Assembly (NCBI GenBank): GCA_017416345.1
Contig: JAFQCR010000033.1
Coordinates: forward strand, 1 to 64,000
DNA: 64,000 bases
Direction of reading: 5' to 3'
Source of the DNA: Clostridia bacterium
Lineage (GTDB): Bacteria; Bacillota; Clostridia; Oscillospirales; Acutalibacteraceae
A program made the translations under genes and the position numbers. Under the pieces are notes generated by a model. That model did no database searches. It was not told the DNA's origin and saw only the letters and a list, made by a program, of their open reading frames with translations. This document shows positions 5,644 through 45,273 of the stretch, piece after piece. Position 1 is the first letter of the stretch. Each line of letters opens with the position of its first letter.

Positions 5644-5818
5644 AGTTAAGAAGTGCCTGAATATCCTCAACTATTTCGGAAACGGCACGTGCCGTTTTGC
5701 CGGCCTTCTTTTTTAGGGTGCGGCTGTTTTTGCAAACGCATTTAACGGTTGCCGAAAGTGCAATTCCCGCAACTATGCCCATTCCCATGCCCTTTGCAAA
5801 GCTCATACAATGCTTCAT
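5642..5818 (-). CDS. 58-residue small membrane-associated protein
   Basis: A short gene starting MKHCMSFAKGMGMG, with one hydrophobic segment (IVAGIALSATV) and a basic then acidic tail (SRTLKKKAGK, SEIVEDIQALLN). AAAGGAG precedes the ATG at 5818 at good spacing, the reading frame is open for 58 codons, and the composition is protein-like. It resembles the short YtxH-type 'glycine-rich helix plus charged tail' proteins of Firmicutes, but no family assignment is firm. It stands between two genes on the other strand. Confidence 0.65.
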   Translation of the reverse strand: MKHCMSFAKGMGMGIVAGIALSATVKCVCKNSRTLKKKAGKTARAVSEIVEDIQALLN

Positions 5819-5883
5819 TTTAAAAACTCCTTTCTTTTTTGCTATTATGCCCCAAAGCGATGAAACCTTGCAGGCTTCACGTG

Positions 5884-5912
5884 TTGCAACCGGGCGAAAA
5901 TTATGGTATAAT
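5884..5912 (+). promoter_or_regulatory. sigma-A promoter of the DUF89 gene
   Basis: TTGCAA, 17-base spacer, TATAAT, ending 28 bases before the ATG at 5941. Confidence 0.7.
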
Positions 5913-5940
5913 ATAAAAAAATCTAAAGTCGGTGTTAAAA

Positions 5941-6822
5941 ATGGATGTTTTAAGATTTGATTCGCAATGCATAAGCTGCATTTTTCAAAAATTTGTCGGA
6001 AATTTGGATAGATCGGTCAGCGAAAAGCAAAAGCTCGACTATGCAAGGCAGGTGCTTCGCATAATGGCCGATGCCGATGACAGCGCTTCGGCACCCGAGA
6101 TAGTGGCGGCCGTGACCGACCTGAAAAACAAGACCTTCGGTGAGTCGGACGATTTTGCCGAGCTTAAGGTGAGATTCAATGCGCTGATGCTCTCAAAAGA
6201 GCCGAGTATGGCGCAAAAAATAGCCGATTCGGCCGACAGTCTCAAAACTGCCGCAAAATTAGCGATGCTGGGCAATTATATTGACTTCGGTGCAATGAAC
6301 AGCGTTTCCGAGGAGACACTCGACGGCCTTTTGGACGGGGCGGACGGCATTGCGTTGGACGATACGGAATACGCCAATTTTCTGAACGACCTGAAAGCGG
6401 CCAAAAGCCTTGTTTATCTGACCGATAACTGCGGCGAGGTGGTGACCGACAAGCTGTTTATCAAGGAGCTTCAAAAAAGCTTCCCGAAGCTTAAAATAAC
6501 GGTCATCGTGCGCGGCGCACCCACGCTGAACGATGCAACGCTTGAGGATGCCGAGCAGGTCGGTCTGCCAAAGGTTGCAACGGTGCTGTCCAACGGCACC
6601 AACATTGCAGGCACCAGCATCGAAAAGCTGTCGGACGGGGCACGCAACGCCCTGCTTTCGGCCGATCTGACGGTATCAAAGGGTCAGGGCAATTTTGAAA
6701 CTCTGCACGATTGCGGACTTAATGTGTACTATCTTTTCCTCTGCAAATGCAGTTTATTCTCGGAGCGTTTCAAAGTGCCCAAGCTCACGGGAATGTTTTT
6801 GAACGACCGCAGGATGAAGTGA
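5941..6822 (+). CDS. DUF89 / ARMT1-like metal-dependent phosphatase
   Basis: A 293-residue cytoplasmic protein of the DUF89 family, which are metal-dependent phosphatases thought to remove harmful phosphorylated metabolites. Family marks: an N-terminal CISC pair, TDNCGEVVTDK with the Asp-Asn metal site in the middle (about residue 160), the IVRGAPTLNDAT stretch, and KGQGNFETL near the C-terminus. The short bacterial length fits the archaeal/bacterial DUF89 branch. The ATG at 5941 has only a weak ribosome site, but the promoter spacing fits. No partner gene is evident. Confidence 0.8.
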   Translation: MDVLRFDSQCISCIFQKFVGNLDRSVSEKQKLDYARQVLRIMADADDSASAPEIVAAVTDLKNKTFGESDDFAELKVRFNALMLSKEPSMAQKIADSADSLKTAAKLAMLGNYIDFGAMNSVSEETLDGLLDGADGIALDDTEYANFLNDLKAAKSLVYLTDNCGEVVTDKLFIKELQKSFPKLKITVIVRGAPTLNDATLEDAEQVGLPKVATVLSNGTNIAGTSIEKLSDGARNALLSADLTVSKGQGNFETLHDCGLNVYYLFLCKCSLFSERFKVPKLTGMFLNDRRMK

Positions 6823-29683: not shown

Positions 29684-29850
29684 TGGCGCATCGACTTCGT
29701 CGATATGATGTTTTTCGCTTGCTCAAAATGATGTTGCTCGTTTCACTCACAATGATGTGATGTTTGCAAAAAACATTAGGCGAAGCCGACATCATTAGCG
29801 GCAGCGGCATCATTAGTGAAACGACATCATCTGCCGAAGGCAAACATCAC
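29684..29850. repeat. degenerate ATGATG-rich repeat at the prophage edge
   Basis: A low-complexity block of short motifs ATGATGT, CATCATTAG, GCGAAGC and TTCGCTTGCTC arranged as small imperfect palindromes. The left half is rich in ATGATG and the right half in its complement CATCAT, so the whole could fold on itself. Such blocks occur as dispersed repeats in Clostridia. The recombinase frame runs into it (to 29813). Confidence 0.55.
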
Positions 29851-31402
29851 TCAAAAAAGTCTCTTTTGTCTGGTAGACAAAAGAGACTTTTTTGTTGGTG
29901 GAACATAACGCACGGCAAACGAACTCTGCACCCTCGGTGCCGAGGCTGTCAACCTCGGCCAAGGTAATGGTGCGATTATCCCCAGAATAGTTAAAGGTAA
30001 GCGTTATTTTATCATCATACACAAATATGGCATTTATGAAAGTATCAATAAGCCGCTTTTGAAATTCTGGGCTTTTTACATCGCCGTTTCTAAAATCGGT
30101 AAGGAAAAAGAGCACATAATCACGGGTGATCTGCCAGGATCGTACCAGCTCCAGATGTGAAAGCTCGGCCTCGATTTCCGCACGCTGTGCATCCAACTCA
30201 TCCAACCGCTTTTTGGTGGCCTCGTTGAATATGCCCGCCTCAATGGCTTTTATAATATTGGCGGTGGCCTTTTCCACCTCGGCCAGCTTACGCTTTAATG
30301 CCTCGGCAAGATCGTTATCCTGGTTTTGTGCTTGGTAGCACTCATATACGGCATCGGCAATGAACTCCAGCAGCTCATCATCCTTGAGCAGATCCATAAC
30401 GGCGTTTATAACAATGCCCTCGATCCACTCCTGCCGCACAGCTTTTTTATGGCAGGTACGCTCCCGGCGTTTTTTGGTGCACACATAATAATTGTGCTTG
30501 GCACCGGTTTTGCTGGTACCGCTTTCCCCGATCATACCGGAGCCACAATGCCCACAGAAAAGTTTATCAGTTAGAATATAATCGGCACGGCTCCAGGTGT
30601 GTGCTGGTGCCCTTTTGTTTACTTTTAGCATTTCCTGCACCTTTGCAAATGTTTCCACATCAATTATGGCCGGCACGCCGCCCTCGATCCTTACATCATC
30701 CTTATAAGTATATACACCGATATACTTTTCATTTTTAAGCATTGAGTGCAGGCTGTTTTTGGTAAACTTACCGCCCCGGAGGGTACGGAGCCCCCGGTTG
30801 TTGAGCTCGGTAACAATTTCCGTAACGGTGCTGCCCTTGGCATACATATCAAACACCAAGCGGACCGTTGGCGCCGTTTCCGGATCTATCACAAATTTTT
30901 TAGTGGCGGGATCCGTTTTGTACCCCAGAGGCCTATTGCCCCCGGTGCTTTGGCATTTCTCTGCACTTGCCCGTTGGCCACGCAGGATGTTTTGGGAAAG
31001 CTGGAGGCTGTAATATTCAGCCATACCCTCAAGCACGCTTTCCAAAATAACGCCCTCCGGGCTGTCTGGGATGCTTTCAGCAACATACACCACTTTTACA
31101 CCATTCTTTTTACAGCGGTATTTATTGAAAGCGATCTCCTCACGGTTACGCCCAAAGCGATCTATTTTCCACAATATTATTGTATCAAACTGCTTTTTGG
31201 CCGTATCTTTGAGCATTTCCTGGAATTGCTCACGGTTATCATTGCGGCCCGTCATTGCTCTGTCGCAGTATTCTTTTACGATGGTAAGCCCGTGCGCTGC
31301 CGCATATTTGTATGCCTCGGCAAGCTGCCCCTCAATACTTTGCTCACCTTGCCTGTGGCTGGAGTACCGGGCATAAACCACCGCTATACGCTTTTTGCTC
31401 AC
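29813..31402 (-). CDS. large serine recombinase (prophage integrase)
   Basis: A 529-residue site-specific recombinase. The catalytic resolvase domain is residues 1-150 (VYARYSS with the nucleophile Ser; DTIILWKIDRFGRNR). The recombinase domain follows (PLGYKTDPATKKF; IVTELNNRGLRTLRGGKFTK), then a zinc-ribbon (LFCGHCGSGMIG...CHKK) and a coiled coil (LKRKLAEVEKATANIIKAIE). The start is GTG at 31402, overlapping the upstream stop by 4 bases. The last about 25 residues are coded by a terminator-like palindrome and the host-type repeat, so the natural C-terminus may have been formed by integration. It integrates and, with a directionality factor, excises the prophage. Confidence 0.9.
   Translation of the reverse strand: MSKKRIAVVYARYSSHRQGEQSIEGQLAEAYKYAAAHGLTIVKEYCDRAMTGRNDNREQFQEMLKDTAKKQFDTIILWKIDRFGRNREEIAFNKYRCKKNGVKVVYVAESIPDSPEGVILESVLEGMAEYYSLQLSQNILRGQRASAEKCQSTGGNRPLGYKTDPATKKFVIDPETAPTVRLVFDMYAKGSTVTEIVTELNNRGLRTLRGGKFTKNSLHSMLKNEKYIGVYTYKDDVRIEGGVPAIIDVETFAKVQEMLKVNKRAPAHTWSRADYILTDKLFCGHCGSGMIGESGTSKTGAKHNYYVCTKKRRERTCHKKAVRQEWIEGIVINAVMDLLKDDELLEFIADAVYECYQAQNQDNDLAEALKRKLAEVEKATANIIKAIEAGIFNEATKKRLDELDAQRAEIEAELSHLELVRSWQITRDYVLFFLTDFRNGDVKSPEFQKRLIDTFINAIFVYDDKITLTFNYSGDNRTITLAEVDSLGTEGAEFVCRALCSTNKKVSFVYQTKETFLSDVCLRQMMSFH
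29853..29893. terminator. perfect palindrome with A6/T6 ends, terminator and possible attachment edge
   Basis: Six A, GTCTCTTTTGTC, 5-base loop, GACAAAAGAGAC, six T: a bidirectional terminator-like hairpin lying inside the 3' end of the recombinase frame, about where host and phage sequence meet. Confidence 0.6.
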
Positions 31403-34306: not shown

Positions 34307-34314
34307 GGGGGGGG
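34307..34314 (+). promoter_or_regulatory. G8 run acting as the ribosome site of the DUF2800 gene
   Basis: Eight G between the upstream stop and TAAGATTATG. The G run stands where the Shine-Dalgarno should be. A change in length would alter its spacing and strength. An almost identical sequence precedes the DNA polymerase gene (36949). Confidence 0.55.
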
Positions 34315-34321
34315 TAAGATT

Positions 34322-35527
34322 ATGCCGACACCGGAAAAACACGCTCTGCTGTCTGCATCCTCTGCCTCACGCTGGCTGCGTTGCACAGCCGCCCCTCGAT
34401 TTGAGGAGCAATTCCCGGAAAAAACCTCGGAATACGCAGAGGAGGGCCGACTTGCTCACGCTATTTGTGAGCTCAAGGTAATTAAGAAATTTACCACACA
34501 GCTTACACCCCGTATGTATAGCACCCGCATTAACAAACTCAAAAAGGATCCGCTGTACACCGATGAAATGGATAAAACATCGGATCTGTATGTTGAGCAC
34601 CTTACCGAAAAGGCTATGACCTATGACAGCACGCCCAGCGTTGCCGTTGAGGTGCAGGTTGATTTTGCCGAATATGTACCGGAGGGCTTTGGTACCTGCG
34701 ATTGCATTATGATCGGCGGCGATACCCTCAACATTACCGACTATAAGCACGGCAAAGGCGTGCCTGTATCGGCAGAGGGCAACGCACAAATGAGGCTTTA
34801 CGCCCTCGGTGCTTTGAAACGCTACGCACCTATTTACGGCAACACCATTAAAAATGTGTGTATGACCATTGACCAGCCCCGCATCCAGGATGAGCCCAGC
34901 ACCGAAACCGTCACCGTTGAGGAGCTGCGTGCGTGGGGTGAAAGCATCAAGCCTGCTGCCGCCAAGGCATATATGGGGCTCGGTGAATTTTGCCCCGGTG
35001 AGCATTGCCGTTTTTGCAGAGGCAAGGCACAATGCAAAGCCCGTGCTGCCATTAACACAGCCCTTGAGGAGTTTAAGGACTGCGTACCGCAGAACGGTGA
35101 AAAGCCGCCCCTCTTTGGCCAGGGAGTGCTTACGGATGAGGAGATCGGTGATCTGCTTGTAAGGGGTAAGGAGCTCGTGGCCTGGTATAAGGACCTTGAG
35201 GAGTACGCACTTAACGCCCTGCTTAACGGCGGTACCATCCCCGGATGGAAAGCGGTAGCAGGCAGGAGCAACCGTACATTTACGGACACGGATGCAGCCG
35301 TTGCGGCTGTTATCGCTGCCGGGTACGATGAGGCCCTTGTTTATGAGCGTAAGCCCAAAACCCTTACCGAGCTTGAGAAACTTATGGGCAAGGCTGAATT
35401 TACCGCCAAATTGGGTGCCTATGTGGTTAAGCCTTTGGGCAAGCCCACCCTTGCACCTATGACCGACAAACGAGAGCCTTACAGCCCTGCCGCCGCCGAT
35501 TTTGCGGAGGTGGCAAACAATGGCTGA
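34322..35527 (+). CDS. DUF2800 (Cas4/RecB-like nuclease) protein
   Basis: A 401-residue protein of the DUF2800 family, PD-(D/E)XK nucleases related to Cas4/RecB. Visible marks are LSASSASRWLRCTAAPRFEE at the N-terminus, YVPEGFGTCDCIMIGGDTL then NITDYKHGKG (nuclease motif), and the C-terminal FCPGEHCRFCRGKAQCKAR cysteine cluster, which probably binds an iron-sulfur cluster or zinc. It processes DNA ends in phage replication or recombination. Start ATG 34322 behind the G8 run. Confidence 0.88.
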   Translation: MPTPEKHALLSASSASRWLRCTAAPRFEEQFPEKTSEYAEEGRLAHAICELKVIKKFTTQLTPRMYSTRINKLKKDPLYTDEMDKTSDLYVEHLTEKAMTYDSTPSVAVEVQVDFAEYVPEGFGTCDCIMIGGDTLNITDYKHGKGVPVSAEGNAQMRLYALGALKRYAPIYGNTIKNVCMTIDQPRIQDEPSTETVTVEELRAWGESIKPAAAKAYMGLGEFCPGEHCRFCRGKAQCKARAAINTALEEFKDCVPQNGEKPPLFGQGVLTDEEIGDLLVRGKELVAWYKDLEEYALNALLNGGTIPGWKAVAGRSNRTFTDTDAAVAAVIAAGYDEALVYERKPKTLTELEKLMGKAEFTAKLGAYVVKPLGKPTLAPMTDKREPYSPAAADFAEVANNG

Positions 35528-35852
35528 AACCGTTTACTTGCTTGATGGCACTATGGAGGTAGTGCTCACGGAAAAGGATGTTTTTATTGAGCGCCTTATC
35601 CGTGAAAAGCTCGGTGATGATGCCGCCCGCTTTGTTACCGAATATATAAAGGAACTTGTGGAGGAGGCAAAATACTCCGAGGAGGCACAGCAAGAGGCTG
35701 AAAGCATATCGGATGCTTACCTCACCCTTTGCAACGATGCCCTTGACACTTTCCGGCAGTTAAAGGCATTGGTACGAGAGCCCCGCCTCGATAAGGGCAG
35801 GCTCCAAACGGTTATTGATGCCGGATATAACAACCTTTATAAAAACCTATAA
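35520..35852 (+). CDS. phage protein of unknown function
   Basis: A 110-residue acidic helical protein (RFVTEYIKELVEEAKYSEEA). GGAGGTGG precedes the ATG at 35520, which overlaps the DUF2800 stop. It lies in the replication module; no family recognised. Confidence 0.65.
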   Translation: MAETVYLLDGTMEVVLTEKDVFIERLIREKLGDDAARFVTEYIKELVEEAKYSEEAQQEAESISDAYLTLCNDALDTFRQLKALVREPRLDKGRLQTVIDAGYNNLYKNL

Positions 35853-35872
35853 AACCAAGGAGGCATAAAATT

Positions 35873-36176
35873 ATGCGTTTCAATGAGAACATCCCCCCCC
35901 CGTATGAGTGAGGCCCACAAAAGGGCCGAGGCTGAAAGCGCCGCCTGTGATATGTTGCTTGAGCTTATGCTTGAGAGCAATATGCCGGAGGAGCGTAAGG
36001 TTGGCCTGCACATTATGAAAGCAGCCAAAGAGCTGCACGCCGCTATTGCCGATGTTGTAAATGAGTATGCGGATCCCACCAAAGAGGTACCGTATGAAAC
36101 CGCCAAGCAGGTTGTTGAATACCTCGGCCTGGTGCACACCGGCATTAAGCAATTTATGGAAACCCAAAACACCTAA
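35873..36176 (+). CDS. small helical phage protein, frameshifted at a C9 run
   Basis: AAGGAGG and the ATG at 35873 begin MRFNENI, then a run of nine C (35893-35901) puts the next codons out of frame, ending after 12 codons. With eight C the frame runs on through PPRMSEAHKRAEAESAA to 36176 (about 100 residues, helical, DMLLELMLESNMPEE). As written, translation could still begin at an ATG at 35904 without a ribosome site. The protein has no known family. Either a slippage-prone tract or a base-call error. Confidence 0.65.
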
Positions 36177-36214
36177 TGTACTGAATGAAATTTATATCAA
36201 AGGAGATCAAGAGT

Positions 36215-36946
36215 ATGTATCAAAACATTGCAACCAAAGTATTAACCGGTGAGGTACGCCTTTCCTATGTCAACCTCATCACACCCAGAGCCGCACAGCA
36301 GGGCGGTGAGCCTAAATACAGCGTAACGCTGCTTATTCCCAAGAGCGATAACGCCACCAAGATGGATATTGACAACTCCATCCGTGCGGCGTATGAGGAG
36401 GGCGTAAGCAAAAAGTGGGGCGGCGCACATCCCCAGCCCAAGGTTATTGTGCACGATGGCGATGGTTTACGCCCCTCCGGCTTGCCTTTCGGTGAGGAGT
36501 GCAAAGGCTGCTGGGTAATTACCGCATCCACCAAAAACAAGCCCCAGGTGGTTGGCATTGATAATGTCAACTGTGAGCTTGCCCCCAACGATATTTACAG
36601 CGGTATGTATGCCCGTGTAACCCTCAACTTTTTTGCCTACGATACGGCAGGCAGCAAGGGTGTTGGCTGTGGCCTCGGTAATGTTATGAAAACCAGGGAT
36701 GGTGAGCCCCTTTCTGGCGGTGCATCCGCTGCCAGCGATTTTGCAGACTTTAACACGATGCCTGCGGCGGCTCCTGCTTATGGTGCACAGCCCAATTATG
36801 CGGCACCCGCTGCACCTACCGCACCTGCTTACCAGGCACCTGTTGCTCCCGCTTATCCCCAGGCGGCACCCCAGCAGTACGCACAGCCCGCAGCTCCCCA
36901 GCAGGGCGGCGTAAGGATCAACCCCATTACCGGACAGCCGATGTAA
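36215..36946 (+). CDS. DUF2815 (ssDNA-binding-like) protein
   Basis: A 243-residue protein of DUF2815, thought to be a phage single-stranded-DNA-binding or annealing-like factor that travels with DUF2800 and DNA polymerase. The folded part is residues 1-165 (VLTGEVRLSYVNLITP; PKYSVTLLIPKSD; YSGMYARVTLNFFAY). The tail is Ala/Pro/Gln/Tyr-rich and disordered, like SSB tails. AAAGGAGATC fixes the ATG at 36215. Confidence 0.85.
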   Translation: MYQNIATKVLTGEVRLSYVNLITPRAAQQGGEPKYSVTLLIPKSDNATKMDIDNSIRAAYEEGVSKKWGGAHPQPKVIVHDGDGLRPSGLPFGEECKGCWVITASTKNKPQVVGIDNVNCELAPNDIYSGMYARVTLNFFAYDTAGSKGVGCGLGNVMKTRDGEPLSGGASAASDFADFNTMPAAAPAYGAQPNYAAPAAPTAPAYQAPVAPAYPQAAPQQYAQPAAPQQGGVRINPITGQPM

Positions 36947-36948
36947 CC

Positions 36949-36956
36949 GGGGGGGG
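36949..36956 (+). promoter_or_regulatory. G8 run acting as the ribosome site of the DNA polymerase gene
   Basis: Eight G followed by TAAGATATG, nearly the same as at 34307. There is no other Shine-Dalgarno for the polymerase. Confidence 0.55.
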
Positions 36957-36962
36957 TAAGAT

Positions 36963-38942
36963 ATGCACCACTTGAGCATTGACCTTGAAACCTTTTCAAG
37001 TATTGATATTAAAAAGGCCGGTGCCCATCGGTACATAGCCAGCCCCGATTTTGAGATCCTGCTTTTTGCATATTCCCTTGACGGTGCGGAGCCGGTGTGC
37101 GTGGACTTTGCCGCCGGTGAAACCCTCCCATTTTGGGTGGCTAACGCCCTAACATCCCCCGATTATATAAAGCACGCATTTAACGCCGCTTTTGAGTGGG
37201 GCTGTCTGTCAAAGTATATTGGCAGGCAGCTCCCACCGGAGCAATGGCGTTGCACAATGTTCCACGCTTTATATGCGGGCTATCCTGCAAGCCTGGCGGC
37301 CGCTGGTGCCGCTTTGGGCTTGCCGGAGGATAAACGCAAGCTCAATACAGGTAAAGCCCTTATACGCTATTTCTGCGTGCCCTGTGCCCCCTCAAAGGCA
37401 AATGGCGGGCGTACCCGTAACTATGCACACCACGCCCCGGACCGTTGGCGGCTTTTCAAAGAGTACAACATCGGTGATGTAGTTACCGAAATGGAAATTG
37501 AAAACCGCCTTGCCGCCGTTCCGGTACCGGAGTGGTTGCAAAAGGAATGGGAAACGGATCTCATTATCAACAGCCGAGGCGTGGCGGTTGATATACCGAT
37601 GGTTGAGGGAGCCCTGGAGCTCGGTGCAACGGTCCGGCAAAGCCTTATGCAGGAGGCAATGCGTATTTCCGGGCTGAATAACCCCAACAGCGTAAAGCAG
37701 CTTGCTGCTTGGCTTGAGGAGGAAACCGGCGAGGAAATAACCAGCTTAAATAAGGCAACCGTTGCAGACCTTATGGAAAAAGACGATAACAGCCCGGAGG
37801 CACAGCGTATGCTTGAGATCCGGCAGGAGCTTGGTAAAACCTCCAACAAAAAATATGATGCCATTATGGCGGCTGTGTGCCCCGATGGGCGGGTGCGTGG
37901 ACTTTTACAATTCTATGGAGCCAACCGCACCGGCAGATGGGCAGGCCGTTTGGTGCAGGTGCAGAACCTGCCCCGTACCTATACGGAGCCCCTGGAGTTT
38001 GCCCGTGAGCTTGTTACAAGCAGAAACCTAAACGGCCTCAAGGTGGTTTACGGCAGCGTGCAAGATACCTTGAGCCAGCTTATCCGCACCGCTTTTATAG
38101 CACCCACCGGGCACATACTTATTGATGCTGACTTTTCAGCCATTGAGGCCCGTGTTATATCGTGGCTTGCCGGTGAGGAGTGGCGCCTTGAGGTTTTCCG
38201 CACCCACGGCAAAATTTATGAGGCATCTGCATCCCAAATGTTTGGCGTGCCTCTTGACCGCATAAAAAAGGGCAACCCGGAGTATGCCCTACGCTCCAAG
38301 GGTAAGGTTGCAGAGCTTGCACTTGGCTACCAAGGCAGCAGCGGTGCCCTTATCAATATGGGTGCCTTAAAAATGGGCATCCCGGAGGAGGATCTGCCGG
38401 ATATTGTTACCCGTTGGCGTGAAACCAACAAACGCATAAAGGATCTGTGGTACAAAATGAACGCTGCCGCCGTGCAGGTTATCCAGCAAGGCGGGGCCGT
38501 GGGTGTAAACAATGTGGTTATTGCCCGTGAGTTTGATATAAACCAGGGCATTAACTGTATGACCATCACGCTGCCATCTGGGCGCAAATTGTACTATGTG
38601 GATCCCAAGCTCGGCGTAAACCGCTGGGGCGATCCCTCCATTACCTATATGGGCGTGAACGATAAAAACAAATGGGGCCTTATTGAAACCTACGGCGGCA
38701 AGCTTGTGGAGAACTGTGTGCAAGCCATTGCCCGTGATTGTTTGGCCTTGAGTATTCAACGCTTGGAGGCAGCAGGCATCCCCGTTATATTCCACATCCA
38801 CGATGAGGTTGTAATTGATTGCCCGCCGAATACCACCACCCTTGAAAAGGTGGTTGAGATAATGAGCCAGCCTATACCCTGGGCCCCGGATCTTCCGCTT
38901 GGTGCGGAGGGCTGGGTTGGCCAATTCTTTAAGAAAGATTAA
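36963..38942 (+). CDS. phage family A DNA polymerase
   Basis: A 659-residue replicative polymerase. An N-terminal 3'-5' exonuclease-like domain (SIDLETFSSIDIKKAG) is followed by the polymerase domain with motif A DADFSAIEARVISWL (about residue 388), the helix with RSKGKVAELALGYQG (motif B) and motif C HIHDEVVID near 610. The lack of a 5' nuclease domain is normal for phage enzymes. It replicates the phage DNA together with the VapE-type protein and helicase. Confidence 0.92.
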   Translation: MHHLSIDLETFSSIDIKKAGAHRYIASPDFEILLFAYSLDGAEPVCVDFAAGETLPFWVANALTSPDYIKHAFNAAFEWGCLSKYIGRQLPPEQWRCTMFHALYAGYPASLAAAGAALGLPEDKRKLNTGKALIRYFCVPCAPSKANGGRTRNYAHHAPDRWRLFKEYNIGDVVTEMEIENRLAAVPVPEWLQKEWETDLIINSRGVAVDIPMVEGALELGATVRQSLMQEAMRISGLNNPNSVKQLAAWLEEETGEEITSLNKATVADLMEKDDNSPEAQRMLEIRQELGKTSNKKYDAIMAAVCPDGRVRGLLQFYGANRTGRWAGRLVQVQNLPRTYTEPLEFARELVTSRNLNGLKVVYGSVQDTLSQLIRTAFIAPTGHILIDADFSAIEARVISWLAGEEWRLEVFRTHGKIYEASASQMFGVPLDRIKKGNPEYALRSKGKVAELALGYQGSSGALINMGALKMGIPEEDLPDIVTRWRETNKRIKDLWYKMNAAAVQVIQQGGAVGVNNVVIAREFDINQGINCMTITLPSGRKLYYVDPKLGVNRWGDPSITYMGVNDKNKWGLIETYGGKLVENCVQAIARDCLALSIQRLEAAGIPVIFHIHDEVVIDCPPNTTTLEKVVEIMSQPIPWAPDLPLGAEGWVGQFFKKD

Positions 38943-38955
38943 AAGGAGGAGCCCC

Positions 38956-39703
38956 GTGAGGTACCAAGGTGGAAAATCAAGAATTGCAACACCCTTGGCA
39001 CAGATCCTCAACACTACGGGGGGGGGCTTGCTTTGTTAGCCTTTTCTGTGGTAGCTGCTCCGTTGAGAGCAAAGTAACCGGTTATGACCGCATCATCCTA
39101 AACGATAAGCACGAGTATTTGATCTCAATGTTAAAGGGTGTACAGCAAGGTTACGAATTGCCGGAAACCATAACGGAGGATCAGTACCAATATATACGAG
39201 CCAATAAGGATGCAGATCCCGTGCTCACAGGCTTTGTGGGTTTTGGGTGCAGCTTTGGTGGCAAGTGGTTTGGCGGTTATGCCAGGAATAAGGGCGGCAC
39301 CAATTACGCAGCCCAAAGCAAAAGATCATTGTTAAAAGATATGGCCACGCTCGGCGGTGCAGAGTTTATTTGTGGCGATTATCGCAAAGTACCGATACCG
39401 CCCGGAGCCGTTGTGTATGCGGATCCACCGTATGCAGACACCACGGGCTATAACGGCGAGAAATTTGACAGCAAAGAGTTTTGGCGGGCAATGCGGTTGC
39501 TTGCTGACACCGGGCACACCGTTTACATAAGTGAGCAGACCGCCCCGCCAGACTTCGTATGCGTGTGGGAAAAGCCCTTTACCCGCACCCTCGACAGAAA
39601 CAAGGGCAACCAATTTAAGGTAACAGAAAAGCTCTTTACCTACATATCACCATTACACCAAGGAGGCAGTACGGATGGCAAGCATACCACCCAAATGTAT
39701 TAA
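38956..39703 (+). CDS. Dam-type (D12 class) DNA adenine methyltransferase, frameshifted at a G9 run
   Basis: AAGGAGG and a GTG at 38956 begin VRYQGGKSRIATPLAQI, the usual N-terminus of these enzymes. A run of nine G (39018-39026) then shifts the frame and a stop follows at 39037. With eight G the frame runs on into CFVSLFCGSCSVESKV, then DKHEYLISM and the catalytic motif YADPPYADTTGY, to 39703: about 248 residues. It methylates adenine in DNA; the target is unknown. The last 29 bases overlap the next gene. Confidence 0.8.
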
Positions 39704-39893
39704 CTGTGTGCATCATAAAAAGAGCCAAAGCGTTGTGCAGGGTGTGGTTGTTTCCGAGTGCGATTATTGCGACTATATAGAGCATTGGAACGGCTACGCA
39801 AATACGCCGGTGCCGTACCCTTATTTTTATAAGCAAGAGTACCCGTGCCCTGGGCACAAGGAGGCAGTACAGGATGATACCCTTACCAAATAA
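39675..39893 (+). CDS. small Cys-rich phage protein
   Basis: A 72-residue protein with four N-terminal cysteines in CINC...CDYC, a likely zinc site, and a Tyr/Pro-rich tail (TPVPYPYFYKQEYPC). AAGGAGG precedes the ATG. It overlaps both flanking genes, which code for methyltransferases. Function unknown. Confidence 0.65.
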   Translation: MASIPPKCINCVHHKKSQSVVQGVVVSECDYCDYIEHWNGYANTPVPYPYFYKQEYPCPGHKEAVQDDTLTK

Positions 39894-40432
39894 AAAATAT
39901 AGCGTTATATACGCAGATCCACCCTGGGCTTATCAGCAAGGCGGCAGGGGTGCCGCCAAGCACCATTACGATACGATGAGCACCGAGGCATTATGTAATA
40001 TGCCCGTGCGGGATATTTGCACCGATGATGCCGTGCTCTTTATGTGGGCCACTTTCCCGAATTTGCCGGAGGCATTAAAGGTTATGGAGGCCTGGGGCTT
40101 TACCTACAAAACAGCAGCGTTTGTGTGGGTGAAACAAAACAAAAAGGCACCCACCCTGTTTATGGGTGGCGGCTCCTACACCAGGGCAAATGCGGAGGTT
40201 TGCCTGCTCGGTGTAAGCAAGAACACCAAGGCAAAAAGGTTTGTGGCATCGCACAGCGTGCGGCAGATCATTATAACGCCGGTACGCCAGCACTCCCAAA
40301 AGCCCGCAGAGGCACGGGATCGCATCCGTGAACTTACGGGGGGGGGATCACTCGTACATAGAGCTTTTTGCCCGAAATACCACGCCCGGCTGGGATGTGT
40401 GGGGAAACGAGGTAAACAAGTATGAGCGTTAA
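39874..40432 (+). CDS. MT-A70 family DNA adenine methyltransferase, frameshifted at a G9 run
   Basis: AAGGAGG precedes the ATG at 39874. The catalytic motif is YADPPWAYQQGG near residue 15, with FMWATFPNLPEAL after it. A run of nine G at 40338-40346 diverts the C-terminus to an unrelated sequence ending at 40425. With eight G the usual family ending SYIELFARNTTPGWDVWG, then NEVNKYER, is restored and stops at 40432 (about 186 residues). Thus only the last 30 residues are affected. As written it might be inactive or unstable. Overlaps the next gene. Confidence 0.8.
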
Positions 40433-40970
40433 GATCTACATTGCCGGCAAAATTACCGGCGATCCCAATTATAAAGCAAAATTTGAGGCGGCAGCCGAGG
40501 AGTACAAAAAAAAGGGTTACATCGTGCTTAACCCCTCCTGGATGCCAAAAGGGATGCAGCCCGCAGATTATATGCGTATCTGCTTTGCAATGATTGACAC
40601 AGCGGATGTGGTTGCTTTCCTGCCTGGATATAGAACGAGCCCCGGTGCACAGCTTGAGCTGCAATACTGTTTTTATACCGATAAAACAACGCACCTGCCG
40701 CCGGAGCCCTTTGACGAAAACGGGGAGCCCACGCTTGAGGACTACAAAAAGGCCTATGAGCAAGCGGTGGTGCAACTCAACCAAATTAAAAAGCTCAACA
40801 GCTGCAACAACTGCCGTAATGTGGGCATCTGCCTGCACTTGCCCTCCGAGGGTGAGCCGGTGCGTATCAACTGCCCATTTTGGGCAAAGGAATTGCCCCG
40901 CAGTTACTACAAAAAGGGTGCTGTGCACCGCAGAATGTTTGAGCCGCCCGATAAGGAGGTAAAGGCGTGA
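40422..40970 (+). CDS. DUF4406-type (nucleoside deoxyribosyltransferase-like) protein
   Basis: A 182-residue protein. Residues 1-90 match DUF4406, a Rossmann-like fold related to nucleoside 2-deoxyribosyltransferase: KIYIAGKITGDPNYKAKF, VLNPSWMPKG and YRTSPGAQLE. The C-terminal 60 residues hold CNNCRNVGIC...CPFW, a probable metal site. It may alter or salvage nucleotides for phage DNA. GAGGTAAACAAGT precedes the ATG. Confidence 0.75.
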   Translation: MSVKIYIAGKITGDPNYKAKFEAAAEEYKKKGYIVLNPSWMPKGMQPADYMRICFAMIDTADVVAFLPGYRTSPGAQLELQYCFYTDKTTHLPPEPFDENGEPTLEDYKKAYEQAVVQLNQIKKLNSCNNCRNVGICLHLPSEGEPVRINCPFWAKELPRSYYKKGAVHRRMFEPPDKEVKA

Positions 40971-41653
40971 ATATACTTGTAGCTTGTGAGGAAAGCCAAG
41001 CGGTTACTGTTGCGCTACGCAGGCTCGGCCACAATGCTTACAGTTGCGACATTATCCCGTGCTCCGGCGGCCACCCAGAGTGGCACATACAAAAGGATGT
41101 GCTCCCGTTGCTTGATGGGTTTGTGCTTTTCCATACCGCAGACGGTACACCACACTTTGTGGGTGGCCGCTGGGATATGATTATTGCTTTTCCACCCTGC
41201 ACTTATTTATCAAACGCCGGTGCCTGCCGGTTATACCCCAAAAAGGGGCAGCTTAATATGGAGCGTTACCAAAAAGGGCTTGAGGCAAAAGCGTTTTTTA
41301 TGCGCTTTTTAGAGGCAAATTGCCCACGCATTGCGGTGGAAAACCCTGTTTCAAGCAAGGTGTATGAAATGCCGCCACACTCCCAGGAAATACAACCCTG
41401 GCAATACGGGCACCCCGTTACAAAGAAAACCCGCTTGTGGTTACGAGGCTTGCCTCTGCTCATTCCCACGAATATTGTAAAACCAACAGGCCCCTATGTT
41501 CCCGCAGGCACCGGCAGAAAAGATAAGAGCAAATATGGTGCCGCCAAGAGGGGGGGGCAAGACTCAATAAACAGATCAAAAACCTTTCCCGGCATTGCGG
41601 CTGCTATGGCCGAGCAATGGGCCGGCCCATCACAGGAGGTGCAGGATGAATAA
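40967..41653 (+). CDS. DNA cytosine methyltransferase-like protein
   Basis: A 228-residue protein of the group annotated as phage DNA (cytosine) methyltransferases: an AdoMet-type start ILVACEESQAVTVALRRLG, AFPPCTYLSNAGA with the Pro-Cys motif, and IAVENPVSSKVYE. GTG start at 40967 overlaps the upstream stop by 4 bases, behind AAGGAGG. A G8 run at 41550-41557 lies in the coding frame (KRGGQ) and is in frame as written. It is shorter than classic Dcm enzymes, so the activity is inference. Confidence 0.75.
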   Translation: MNILVACEESQAVTVALRRLGHNAYSCDIIPCSGGHPEWHIQKDVLPLLDGFVLFHTADGTPHFVGGRWDMIIAFPPCTYLSNAGACRLYPKKGQLNMERYQKGLEAKAFFMRFLEANCPRIAVENPVSSKVYEMPPHSQEIQPWQYGHPVTKKTRLWLRGLPLLIPTNIVKPTGPYVPAGTGRKDKSKYGAAKRGGQDSINRSKTFPGIAAAMAEQWAGPSQEVQDE

Positions 41654-42638
41654 AATAATTTTTGCCGATGCCTTAAAGGGGCTGGCCGTACTTGAAAGCA
41701 ACAGCGTTGACACCTGCATCACATCCCCACCATATTACGGGCTGCGTGATTACGGAAACAGCGGGCAGATTGGTTTGGAAAGTACGCCGGAGGAATACAT
41801 ACAGCGCCTCGTTGCTGTTTTTAGAGAGGTGCGCCGTGTACTTAAACCGGATGGCACGCTGTGGGTGGTTATCGCAGACAGTTACGCCGGATCCGGAAAA
41901 GGTTGGAGCAACAAAAACAACCGAGGCGTACGCCCACAGACCTGCGCCAACTTTGACGGTATAAAGCCAAAGGATCTAATAGGCATACCTTGGTTGCTGG
42001 CCTTTGCGCTCCGTGCAGATGGCTGGTACCTGCGCCAGGACATTATATGGCAAAAGCCAAACCCTATGCCGGAAAGTGTGCGGGATCGTTGCACCAAAAG
42101 CCACGAGTATGTTTTTCTGCTTTCAAAATCACCCCGCTATTATTTTGACGGTGAGGCCATTGCAGAGCCGGTGGCCGAAAGCACAATAAAAAGGCTGTCG
42201 CAGGATGTGGAGAGCCAAGTGGGCTCCTCCCGTGTACCTGGAAAAGATAAGCCGATGAAAGCAAGCCACACACGGTATGGCGGTGCAAAATACACAGCCA
42301 CTCCCGACAAATTCAACCGCACAAAATCTGGCAATATGTACGAGTTTAAGGAAAAGCGCAACAAGCGGGATGTGTGGACCGTAAGCACCAAGCCTTACAA
42401 GGGTGCACACTTTGCTACTTACCCCGATACGCTGATCCTGCCCTGCATTTTGGCCGGCAGCCGTGCCGGCGGCACCGTTCTTGATCCATTTTGCGGATCC
42501 GGCACCACCGTACAGGTTGCAGCTGAATACGGCAGGCACGGTATTGGTATTGAGATCAATACCGAATACGAGCCGCTTATAAAGGAACGGGTGGGCGATT
42601 ATCAGCGCATTGCGCTGGAGGAGGTACCCGATGAGTAA
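41646..42638 (+). CDS. DNA methyltransferase, N4-cytosine/N6-adenine type
   Basis: A 330-residue type II-like methyltransferase of the beta class: motif IV TSPPYYGLRDYG near residue 30 and motif I FCGSGTTVQVA near residue 285, so the order is motif IV before I. GGAGGTG precedes the ATG at 41646; the longer frame is rejected. No restriction enzyme lies nearby, so it is a phage orphan methylase, probably for protection. Confidence 0.88.
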   Translation: MNKIIFADALKGLAVLESNSVDTCITSPPYYGLRDYGNSGQIGLESTPEEYIQRLVAVFREVRRVLKPDGTLWVVIADSYAGSGKGWSNKNNRGVRPQTCANFDGIKPKDLIGIPWLLAFALRADGWYLRQDIIWQKPNPMPESVRDRCTKSHEYVFLLSKSPRYYFDGEAIAEPVAESTIKRLSQDVESQVGSSRVPGKDKPMKASHTRYGGAKYTATPDKFNRTKSGNMYEFKEKRNKRDVWTVSTKPYKGAHFATYPDTLILPCILAGSRAGGTVLDPFCGSGTTVQVAAEYGRHGIGIEINTEYEPLIKERVGDYQRIALEEVPDE

Positions 42639-42840
42639 AATACCTTACAGAAATAGTGAGGGCTACGCAGATCCTACGGCACACGCCGCCCTGGAGCCTA
42701 TTGCCCAGGAGGAGGCAGCCCTTGAAAGCAAAGTAAACTTTTTAATAAAGGTGCTCAAATTCATTGCCAACGAGGCTGGGTTTGATGTAACCAACCGCAT
42801 TGAACTATGCGACAGAAAAACCGGCAGGGTTTTTAAGTAA
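42631..42840 (+). CDS. small phage protein
   Basis: A 69-residue protein, start ATG 42631 behind GGAGGAGG; it is polar and probably helical (EEAALESKVNFLIKVLKFIA). It overlaps the methyltransferase stop by 8 bases. Unknown function. The 36 bases after it hold a C7 run and a G-rich stem. Confidence 0.6.
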   Translation: MSKIPYRNSEGYADPTAHAALEPIAQEEAALESKVNFLIKVLKFIANEAGFDVTNRIELCDRKTGRVFK

Positions 42841-42876
42841 GCCCCCCCGTGGGGTGGGCGGTAAGGAGTAACCGCT

Positions 42877-45273
42877 ATGCTAAATGATAGAAAAATAACC
42901 ATATCAGCCGGAGCAAGCCGCCGTGCCACCCTTTGGACCGCACAAACGCTGCTTATATCGGAGTTATGGGAAAAGCTAAAAGTGCCGGCAAGGGGCACGG
43001 AAACCCTTGCAGAATATATGAGCCTCAAAAAGGCTCAACAGGATGAGCTCAAGGATATTGGCGGCTTTATGGGCGGTACCCTTAACGGTCCACGCCGTAA
43101 AGCAAACAATGTTACCGGGCGTGATATTATCACCCTCGACCTTGACAACATCCCCGCAGGTGGCACGGATGATGTGCTGCGGCGTGTTGAGGCTTTGGGC
43201 TGTGGGTACTGCGTATATAGCACCCGTAAGCACCAGCCGGCGGCACCCCGCCTCCGTATTCTGCTGCCTATGGATAGGACCGTAACCGCCGATGAGTATG
43301 AGCCTATTGCACGCAAAATGGGTGAATACATCGGCCTGGAGTTTGCGGATCCCACCACCTTTGAGGTAAGCCGCCTTATGTATTGGCCCAGCTGCTGTGC
43401 TGACAGCCAATATGTTTACCTCACCGCAGATAAGCCCCTGCTTTCAGCGGATGGCTTGCTTGATACATACGCCGATTGGCACGATATGACCACCTGGCCC
43501 GCTTTGCCGGGGCAGCAGGCGTTTACCAAGCTGGCGGTAAAACAAGGCGATCCGGAGGGCAAAAACGGCGTTGTGGGTGCTTTCTGCCGTACCTATGACA
43601 TTTACCGTGCTATGGAGGAATTGATCCCCGGCATATATGAGCCCGTTGACACAATGCCCGGCAGATACACATACATTGGAGGCTCCACCACCGGCGGTGC
43701 TGTGCTGTACGATAACGGCAAATTTTTATACAGCCACCACGCAACGGATCCCTGCTCCGGCAGGCTCGTAAACGCCTTTGACTTGGTACGCCTCCATAAG
43801 TTTGCGGATGCAGACGATGAGGCACAGGCTGGCACACCCGCCAACCGCTTGCCCTCTTACGCTGCTATGTGTGAGTTTGCCACCGGCCTTGCCGATGTTG
43901 CAGGCCTTATGGCACAGGAGCGTTATGCAAACGCTGCCAAAGACTTTGAGGGCATCGGCCCCGATAATGCCGATGATCCCGCCAACTGGATGGCCTTGCT
44001 TGAAACAAGCGCCCAGACTGGTGCAGTAAAAGGCACCATAAACAATGTGCTTATTATCCTGGAGCACGATCCGATGCTCAAAGGTAAGTTTGCCCTCAAC
44101 CAATTTGCCAACCGTGGTGAGGTGCTGGGGGCTCTTCCGTGGGATCAGCGTACCAAACGCCGCCTGTGGGATGATAACGATAACCAAGGCCTTTATTGGT
44201 ACATTGAAAAGGTGTATAAGATCACCGGCAACGGCAAAATTGATGGTGCACTTTCCCTCCATTCCAACCGCTTTGCTTTTAACGAGGTGCAGGACTACCT
44301 GGGAGGCCTCAAAGGCAAATGGGATGGCGTGCCCCGCCTCGATACTCTTTTCATTGACTACCTCGGCGCCAAAGATACCGCATACAACCGTGCCGTTACC
44401 CGTAAGGCTTTTGTGGCAGCTGTTTCCCGTGCTATTACGCCCGGCTGCAAGTATGACAATATGCTTATTTTGACCGGCCCCCAGGGCCTTGGTAAAAGTA
44501 CCCTTTTGGATAAAATGAGCCGTGGCTGGTTTAATGACAGCATCCGCACCTTTGAGGGTAAAGAGGCCAGCGAATTGCTCCAGGGCGTTTGGCTGGTGGA
44601 GGTTGCGGAGCTTGATGCTTTCCGTAAAACCGACATTGCCCGCATAAAGCAGTTTTTGTCTTTGAAAACAGACCGCTACCGCCCCGCTTATGGCAGAAAT
44701 GTTAAAGAACTCCCACGCTGCTGTGTATTCTTTGGCACCTGCAATGAAACAGAATTTTTGCAGGATCCCACCGGCAACCGCCGTTTTTGGCCCGTTGACA
44801 CCGGGGAGCAAAGAGGCACCAAAAGCGTGTTTAAGGATCTTGATGATGAGGTGGATCAACTGTGGGCCGAGGCAGTAATGCGGTGGCAGCTCGGTGAGCC
44901 GTTGTACTTAACCGGTGCCATTGAGGAGGATGCAAAGGCCAAGCAGGAGGAACACCGTGAGGCATCCAGCCGTGAGGGCATCGTGCGTGAGTTTATGGAT
45001 CGACAGGTGCCCGATGATTGGAGCAAATGGCCTCTTGATAAGCGGCGTATGTTCTGGGCAGGCGGTGTGCAGGGCAATGTTACCCTGGTGCCCCGTGATC
45101 GTGTATGTGCCCTTGAGATATGGTGCGAGGCTTTCGGCGGCTCCATTAAGGAAATGAAAAACACCGATACCAGGGAGCTTAATGCAATTATTGCCGCAAC
45201 GCCAGGCTGGAAAAAAGCAGATAAGCCCAAGTATATGGGGCCCTATGGGGCACAGCGTGGGTTTGTACGCTGA
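42877..45273 (+). CDS. VapE-family primase/helicase
   Basis: A 798-residue protein. The N-terminal half has a primase-like (AEP-type) region with a VITLDLDNIPA-like catalytic stretch (DIITLDLDNIPAGGTDDVL). The C-terminal half is a VapE-type P-loop ATPase with Walker A GPQGLGKSTLLDKM near residue 535, then VAELDAFRKTDIARIKQFL and CNETEFLQDPTGNRRFWPV. It opens and primes DNA for phage replication. AAGGAG precedes the ATG. Confidence 0.88.
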   Translation: MLNDRKITISAGASRRATLWTAQTLLISELWEKLKVPARGTETLAEYMSLKKAQQDELKDIGGFMGGTLNGPRRKANNVTGRDIITLDLDNIPAGGTDDVLRRVEALGCGYCVYSTRKHQPAAPRLRILLPMDRTVTADEYEPIARKMGEYIGLEFADPTTFEVSRLMYWPSCCADSQYVYLTADKPLLSADGLLDTYADWHDMTTWPALPGQQAFTKLAVKQGDPEGKNGVVGAFCRTYDIYRAMEELIPGIYEPVDTMPGRYTYIGGSTTGGAVLYDNGKFLYSHHATDPCSGRLVNAFDLVRLHKFADADDEAQAGTPANRLPSYAAMCEFATGLADVAGLMAQERYANAAKDFEGIGPDNADDPANWMALLETSAQTGAVKGTINNVLIILEHDPMLKGKFALNQFANRGEVLGALPWDQRTKRRLWDDNDNQGLYWYIEKVYKITGNGKIDGALSLHSNRFAFNEVQDYLGGLKGKWDGVPRLDTLFIDYLGAKDTAYNRAVTRKAFVAAVSRAITPGCKYDNMLILTGPQGLGKSTLLDKMSRGWFNDSIRTFEGKEASELLQGVWLVEVAELDAFRKTDIARIKQFLSLKTDRYRPAYGRNVKELPRCCVFFGTCNETEFLQDPTGNRRFWPVDTGEQRGTKSVFKDLDDEVDQLWAEAVMRWQLGEPLYLTGAIEEDAKAKQEEHREASSREGIVREFMDRQVPDDWSKWPLDKRRMFWAGGVQGNVTLVPRDRVCALEIWCEAFGGSIKEMKNTDTRELNAIIAATPGWKKADKPKYMGPYGAQRGFVR

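Follow-up and report, generated by a model that had tools for sequence, protein, structure and literature searches.

A prophage in the genome of a member of the Acutalibacteraceae (Clostridia bacterium; assembly GCA_017416345.1) carries runs of seven to nine G or C residues that are, judged from sequence, most probably slippage contingency loci which would phase-vary phage DNA-modification enzymes, with hedging against restriction as their likely use. The runs lie in a window of 64,000 nucleotides, the whole stretch of DNA analysed here (contig JAFQCR010000033.1, positions 1 to 64,000, hereafter C32:1-64000; C32, C35 and C15 denote contigs of the source assembly and L-numbers the fetched loci). 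Those tracts that fall inside large genes are all in DNA methyltransferase genes, a point absent from the initial annotation, and three of the four methyltransferase genes in the window possess a G tract. Slippage loci under selection are favoured because tracts stand at homologous sites in relatives, because their lengths differ between near-identical contigs, and because (GA)n replaces poly-G at the site in the D12-class methyltransferase gene.

All seven runs described in the initial annotation were confirmed in the window, six of length 8-9 and one C7, although the last starts at 42842 and not at 42843. They were rightly singled out as the longest in the 64 kb, the next longest being two 6-mers. 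The description of their registers held as well, with one reservation: read by eye, all three 9-mers are out of register with their flanking frames, as if one base too long, but at 35893 a second ATG is in register; the 8-mers, said to be in frame or to serve as ribosome sites, are either in register (41550) or precede an ATG by 7 and 6 bases (34307 and 36949, respectively). Across the source assembly (2,469,392 bases), G/C runs of at least 8 occur at 7 places, all in one prophage and spanning C32:34307 to C32:67600, with six in the window and one past its end (C32:67593). Runs of at least 7 occur at 10 places, namely the window's seven together with C32:67593, C32:179111 and C35:29321. A third-order Markov model of the window expects 0.76 runs of at least 8, and 6 were observed. 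The chance that 7 of 7 such runs fall within the prophage is about 5e-13 when the latter is taken as C32:29813-73525, an assumed span (1.8% of the assembly). Like the repeats of simple-sequence contingency loci, these tracts are longer than chance would give.

The D12-class adenine methyltransferase gene (38956..39703, plus strand; Pfam PF02086 on 38969-39703; start and stop read by eye) contains a G9 tract at 39018..39026 (plus strand), between its Y.GGK and SLFCGSC motifs; the gene is out of register at the tract, and the upstream frame ends ~27 codons in. We scored 61 homologues at this site, leaving out 5 without the upstream motif and 4 that were cut short, and counted as a repeat at least 7 G or C, or at least 5 GA units. 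Registers here and at the MT-A70 site were scored by motifs, as blastx frame calls were too noisy. Among the 29 scored homologues with at least 53% identity, 24 have the repeat, evenly divided between 12 in register and 12 out; of the remaining five, two lack a repeat and are in register, whereas three have a short one and are out of register. The distant homologues are repeat-free and in register without exception (32/32 scored). Over the 61 genes, which are not fully independent of each other, repeat and register are associated with a Fisher p of 0.0005. The repeat is mostly poly-G, with poly-C in L125 and (GA)n in L033, L126, L132/L133/L152 and L135-L138. Besides, GA or AG repeats of at least 6 units were found nine times among 169 loci scanned, every one at the D12 site. 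Selection, which the initial annotation had offered alongside a shared origin, is favoured, whereas a common origin for every tract lacks support, given that a single site may hold different repeat units. Its suggestion that the restored length is exactly eight does not amount to a rule either, given that relatives have in-register D12 tracts of anywhere between 7 and 11. In the source family, the D12 gene was matched at E 1e-20 in 1 of 300 genomes, the source genome itself; among named phages, the D12 protein matches 227 of 50,697 records, the first listed being 42% identical and none reaching 60%. Five phage records were fetched, with one C10 in L323, one G7 in L325 and no runs of at least 7 in L324, L326 and L327.

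A second site lies in the MT-A70 family methyltransferase gene (39874..40425, plus strand; Pfam PF05063, phrog_359), which goes out of register near its 3' end and has a G9 tract (40338..40346, plus strand) just before the IELFAR motif. The scan covered the best 80 matches, with 92 loci scored and 5 left out for want of the motifs. A run of at least 6 was present at one place in 12 of the 92 loci, 7 in register and 5 out, or 5 and 4 after joining three near-identical pairs. Among run-free loci, 78 are in register and two (L272 and L277) were scored as out, which look like motif misreads. At both the D12 and the MT-A70 sites, tract length shifts the gene in or out of register, and both states occur in nature. 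The phrog_757 DNA methyltransferase gene (40967..41653, plus strand; phrog_757 at E 4e-51, no Pfam match) is in register across a G8 tract near its 3' end (41550..41557, plus strand), and the N6_N4 methyltransferase gene (41646..42638, plus strand) is free of tracts. As assembled, the D12 and MT-A70 genes would be off, the phrog_757 methyltransferase on, and a small gene with a C9 tract, described below, off or weak.

At the level of assemblies, tract length evolves far more rapidly than the remaining sequence. L010 and L024, from two IMG accessions, share 19,131 bp with 0 substitutions, and the 3 single-base insertions or deletions between them are all in tracts (3/10 tracts). Over 4,026 bp, the sole differences between L023 and L208 are at 2 of 4 tracts. 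Between L135 and L136 (9,368 bp), the D12 repeat differs in length by a single GA unit, which changes the D12 register, and there are also 11 substitutions and two other gaps. Taking together the 23 contig pairs with no more than 3 substitutions (218,608 bp), 7 of 26 tracts changed, as against 14 substitutions and 2 other insertions or deletions in the entire 218,608 bp; among pairs with more substitutions, some show tract changes and others do not. Along with the tracts of other lengths at homologous sites, these differences speak for phase variation by slippage, as the initial annotation had supposed.

Comparison with homologous prophages revealed G/C tracts in many, not all, relatives, often at homologous sites and often of other lengths. 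These relatives were fetched with the polymerase protein and comprise 79 viral contig loci and 26 genome contig loci, the latter mostly from metagenome Clostridia assemblies. After near-identical second copies and re-fetched contigs had been dropped, 95 deduplicated loci (1.47 Mb, window included) contained 91 G/C runs of at least 8, where 17.7 were expected, and 93 of 6-7, where 284 were expected; A/T runs of at least 8 numbered 86, with 230 expected. A deficit at 6-7 plus an excess at 8-9 is a pattern that selection for slippery lengths could leave. The count by gene class was redone on polymerase-fetched loci only, since D12-fetched loci favour D12 tracts. Here, methyltransferase families were matched up to 32 times in 76 tract-overlapping open reading frames (ORFs), with C5 at 10, D12 at 9, MT-A70 at 6, N6_N4 at 5 and Dam at 2, whereby one ORF may count twice. 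Among 98 tract-free control ORFs, drawn from all tract-bearing loci with tract-bearing ORFs excluded, 2 match such families within the families shown. One C5 methyltransferase region (L010:14417-15179) has as many as five tracts of 7-9 G, and PF00145 matches 2 of its 3 pieces. PAPS-reductase-like genes recur among the tract ORFs (4/102 overall, 2/76 polymerase-fetched), and a G10 lies within such a gene at L140:1593. Separately, C5-fetched phage contigs were seen to carry dinucleotide repeats of 6-16 units (L194:8042 AT, L202:9946 CA, L203:9089 AT, L207:3516 CT and L208:5151 AG).

Several observations weigh against a system of selected switches of DNA modification. Over half the tract ORFs have no match to any methyltransferase family, and the control count omits 12 single-member families. 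All seven tract changes fall in 4 of the 13 tract-bearing near-identical pairs and none in the other 9, several pairs with more substitutions keep every tract (e.g. L195/L197, with 5 tracts and 25 substitutions), and the paired metagenomes may or may not be independent of each other. At the D12 site, the three close genes without a full repeat (G6, G6 and four GA units) are out of register too, and L142, a homologue with 46% identity that went unscored for a missing motif, has a G7 near the site. Moreover, the excess of G tracts at ribosome-binding positions is modest: G tracts of at least 8 lie 4-12 bases before the start codon of an open frame in 25/123 cases, some of these 25 being inside genes, as compared with 7/123 for C tracts and 892/7,600 for random places.

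The initial annotation had also raised a homopolymer error in sequencing or assembly, under which true lengths would be constant and the odd lengths artefacts. The lengths do rest on assemblies rather than reads, an improbable C15 followed by G14 occurs in L013 near a contig end, and L098 and L111 differ also at a T8. Yet error alters the length of a run and not its placement, and in many contigs the tracts are found again at fixed sites relative to the genes; an error of one assembly is unlikely because matching gene positions bear tracts in phage contigs of other accessions as well. The absence of runs of at least 8 from the source genome outside the prophage, and (GA)n at the same D12 site with its one-unit difference between L135 and L136, tell against this explanation too, which we hold to be very unlikely, even if the length at an individual window site may be wrong. 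A neutral mutation bias of these phages that makes and keeps G/C runs, without selection for switching, would fit the occurrence of both G and C tracts, intergenic ones included, and the many tract ORFs of unknown function. It sits poorly with an excess at 8 and above together with a deficit at 6-7, with recurrence at fixed sites, with differing repeat units at one site and with the concentration in methyltransferases, and appears unlikely.

Alternatively, the tracts might be programmed slippage sites for RNA polymerase or the ribosome, such that one DNA length yields both protein forms. Eight or nine G could be slippery in transcription, and in-register and out-of-register forms both persist; however, DNA lengths differ between otherwise identical contigs, and the leader tracts would need a separate role. 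As a replacement for DNA-level switching we consider this quite improbable, whereas it could act in addition. Finally, the out-of-register genes might be plain pseudogenes of a decaying prophage, given that two methyltransferases and the small gene are out of register simultaneously. But the polymerase, VapE-like, terminase, portal and tape measure genes are all open, and the lesions fall in repeats, at sites where half of the relatives are in register, which makes decay a most improbable account. Two further candidates were rejected. A host-wide repeat habit was ruled out, as there is no (GA)6 in the genome and just two 7-runs outside the prophage. Glycine codon usage would not explain the runs either: of the 287 Gly codons counted in the early genes, 32 are GGG, and a different cause would still have to be found for poly-C, (GA)n and leader tracts.

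Returning to slippage loci that switch DNA modification, repeat units are added or removed far faster than other mutations arise, as seen between near-identical contigs, and within a coding tract the change in length sets the gene in or out of register, and with it, we infer, methyltransferase activity. Tract length at ribosome-binding positions probably tunes translation. Phage bursts would then be mixtures of methyltransferase states, in which some methylation sets might evade the restriction systems they meet and others methylation-dependent defences, so that a hedge against restriction is probably the function of tract switching. Since methyltransferases are the most frequent named tract targets, descendants of one phage should differ in their active methyltransferase sets and methylation patterns. 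We lean towards the broader view that many gut Clostridia phages run a combinatorial methylome lottery, wherein a number of unrelated methyltransferases, every one of them having a slippery repeat of its own in a conserved position, give rise to many epigenetic types per burst, here beside a diversity-generating retroelement (DGR). If so, phages would phase-vary DNA modification much as bacteria phase-vary restriction, and heritable phage variation would cover DNA marking as well as binding. This would also offer a reason why restriction fails simply to exclude such phages, and why some phage methyltransferases resemble pseudogenes in assemblies.

Poly-G tracts were reportedly surveyed in more than 100 phage genera by Sorensen et al. 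in 2021 (Cell Rep 35:109214). The closest described parallel concerns Campylobacter Fletchervirus phages, in which poly-G tracts phase-vary receptor-binding proteins (PMC11868660, PMC11959909, PMC10579305, PMC9311878). Both systems have poly-G tracts carried by the phage, and in both, changes in tract length switch genes and diversify the phage population. The named targets here, however, are mainly DNA methyltransferases instead of receptor-binding proteins, the repeats may be poly-C or (GA)n, and, while the Fletchervirus host itself uses poly-G tracts, the source genome has no G/C run of at least 8 outside the prophage and two runs of 7. The sole late-region tract of at least 8 is intergenic, 9 bases before an ATG; the prophage's receptor-binding gene was not identified. 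In bacterial phasevarions, simple repeats switch DNA methyltransferases on and off, and by way of methylation this alters how many genes are expressed. The likeness to the present genes, seen at the sequence level, covers a methyltransferase that a repeat would switch; unlike in bacteria, these are phage genes (D12, MT-A70, C5, N6_N4 and Dam families) with no restriction partner seen. Examples from the literature on phase-variable bacterial methyltransferases and phasevarions are PMC9577141 and PMC6902483. Orphan methyltransferases of dairy phages are likewise phage-encoded, and one protects phage DNA from a restriction enzyme (PMC5601072), but without phase variation as far as the text consulted goes, and the word 'phase' occurs 0 times in that article. 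Among the matches listed in a literature search that lay within openly available articles, subscription papers and preprints being outside it, no report of phase-variable phage methyltransferases was found.

The other tracts of the window precede genes or lie in a small one. The DUF2800/exonuclease gene (34322-35527) has a G8 (34307..34314, plus strand) at a ribosome-binding position, 7 bases ahead of its ATG, and the homologous position has G8 in L010 and G9 in L030 and L089. The family A DNA polymerase gene (36963-38942) likewise has a G8 (36949..36956, plus strand) at a ribosome-binding position, here 6 bases ahead of the ATG, with a G9 at a like position in L092. The C9 (35893..35901, plus strand) is a few codons into the small gene, out of register from the ATG at 35873, which a Shine-Dalgarno sequence precedes; the downstream frame runs to 36176, and the second ATG (35883), farther from the Shine-Dalgarno, is in register across the C9. 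The frame 35883-36176 has no Pfam or PHROG match. Homologous C tracts are C9 in L010, L089 and L020, C8 in L024 and L012, and C7 in L030, in register by eye in L024 and L012 only. The C7 (42842..42848, plus strand) lies in the leader of the VapE-like gene (42877-45273), a site with C7 or C8 in L010, L011, L024, L089 and L094; near the contig end of L013 (8158-8186) it reads C15 directly followed by G14, probably an assembly artefact. A special RNA structure at this C7 or the two ribosome-site tracts was rejected (z from -0.92 to 0.63 for six stretches against shuffles).

The element is marked as a prophage by a serine recombinase (29813-31402, minus strand), a Cro/C1-type HTH protein, replication genes, terminase, portal and tape measure, and, past the window end, by a reverse transcriptase and an amidase. 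Its early genes run in the order DUF2800/exonuclease, small gene, Enc34-like single-stranded DNA-binding protein, family A polymerase, D12 and MT-A70 methyltransferases, DUF4406 protein, phrog_757 and N6_N4 methyltransferases, VapE-like gene and SNF2 helicase. The genome's seventh run of at least 8, a G8 at C32:67593-67600 (L009:3593-3600), precedes an ATG by 9 bases and lies between two late genes. Also past the window end lies the DGR (L009:4031-7262, C32 about 68031-71262), consisting of a reverse transcriptase (RVT_1; L009:6117-7262), a 100-base template (5881-5980) and a variable repeat (5660-5759); the 16 mismatches between the latter two are all at template adenines. With the tracts, there are therefore two diversity generators in one prophage. 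As for the host, no Mrr catalytic domain was found in the source genome, and HSDR_N and Methylase_S domains on C15 and C35 indicate that restriction-modification genes are present. On C35, a run of 7 (C35:29321-29327, L328:4322-4328), read on the minus strand, precedes the ATG of a small gene by 8 bases; shortly downstream of this gene is a 984-residue frame in which both HSDR_N and Methylase_S domains occur.

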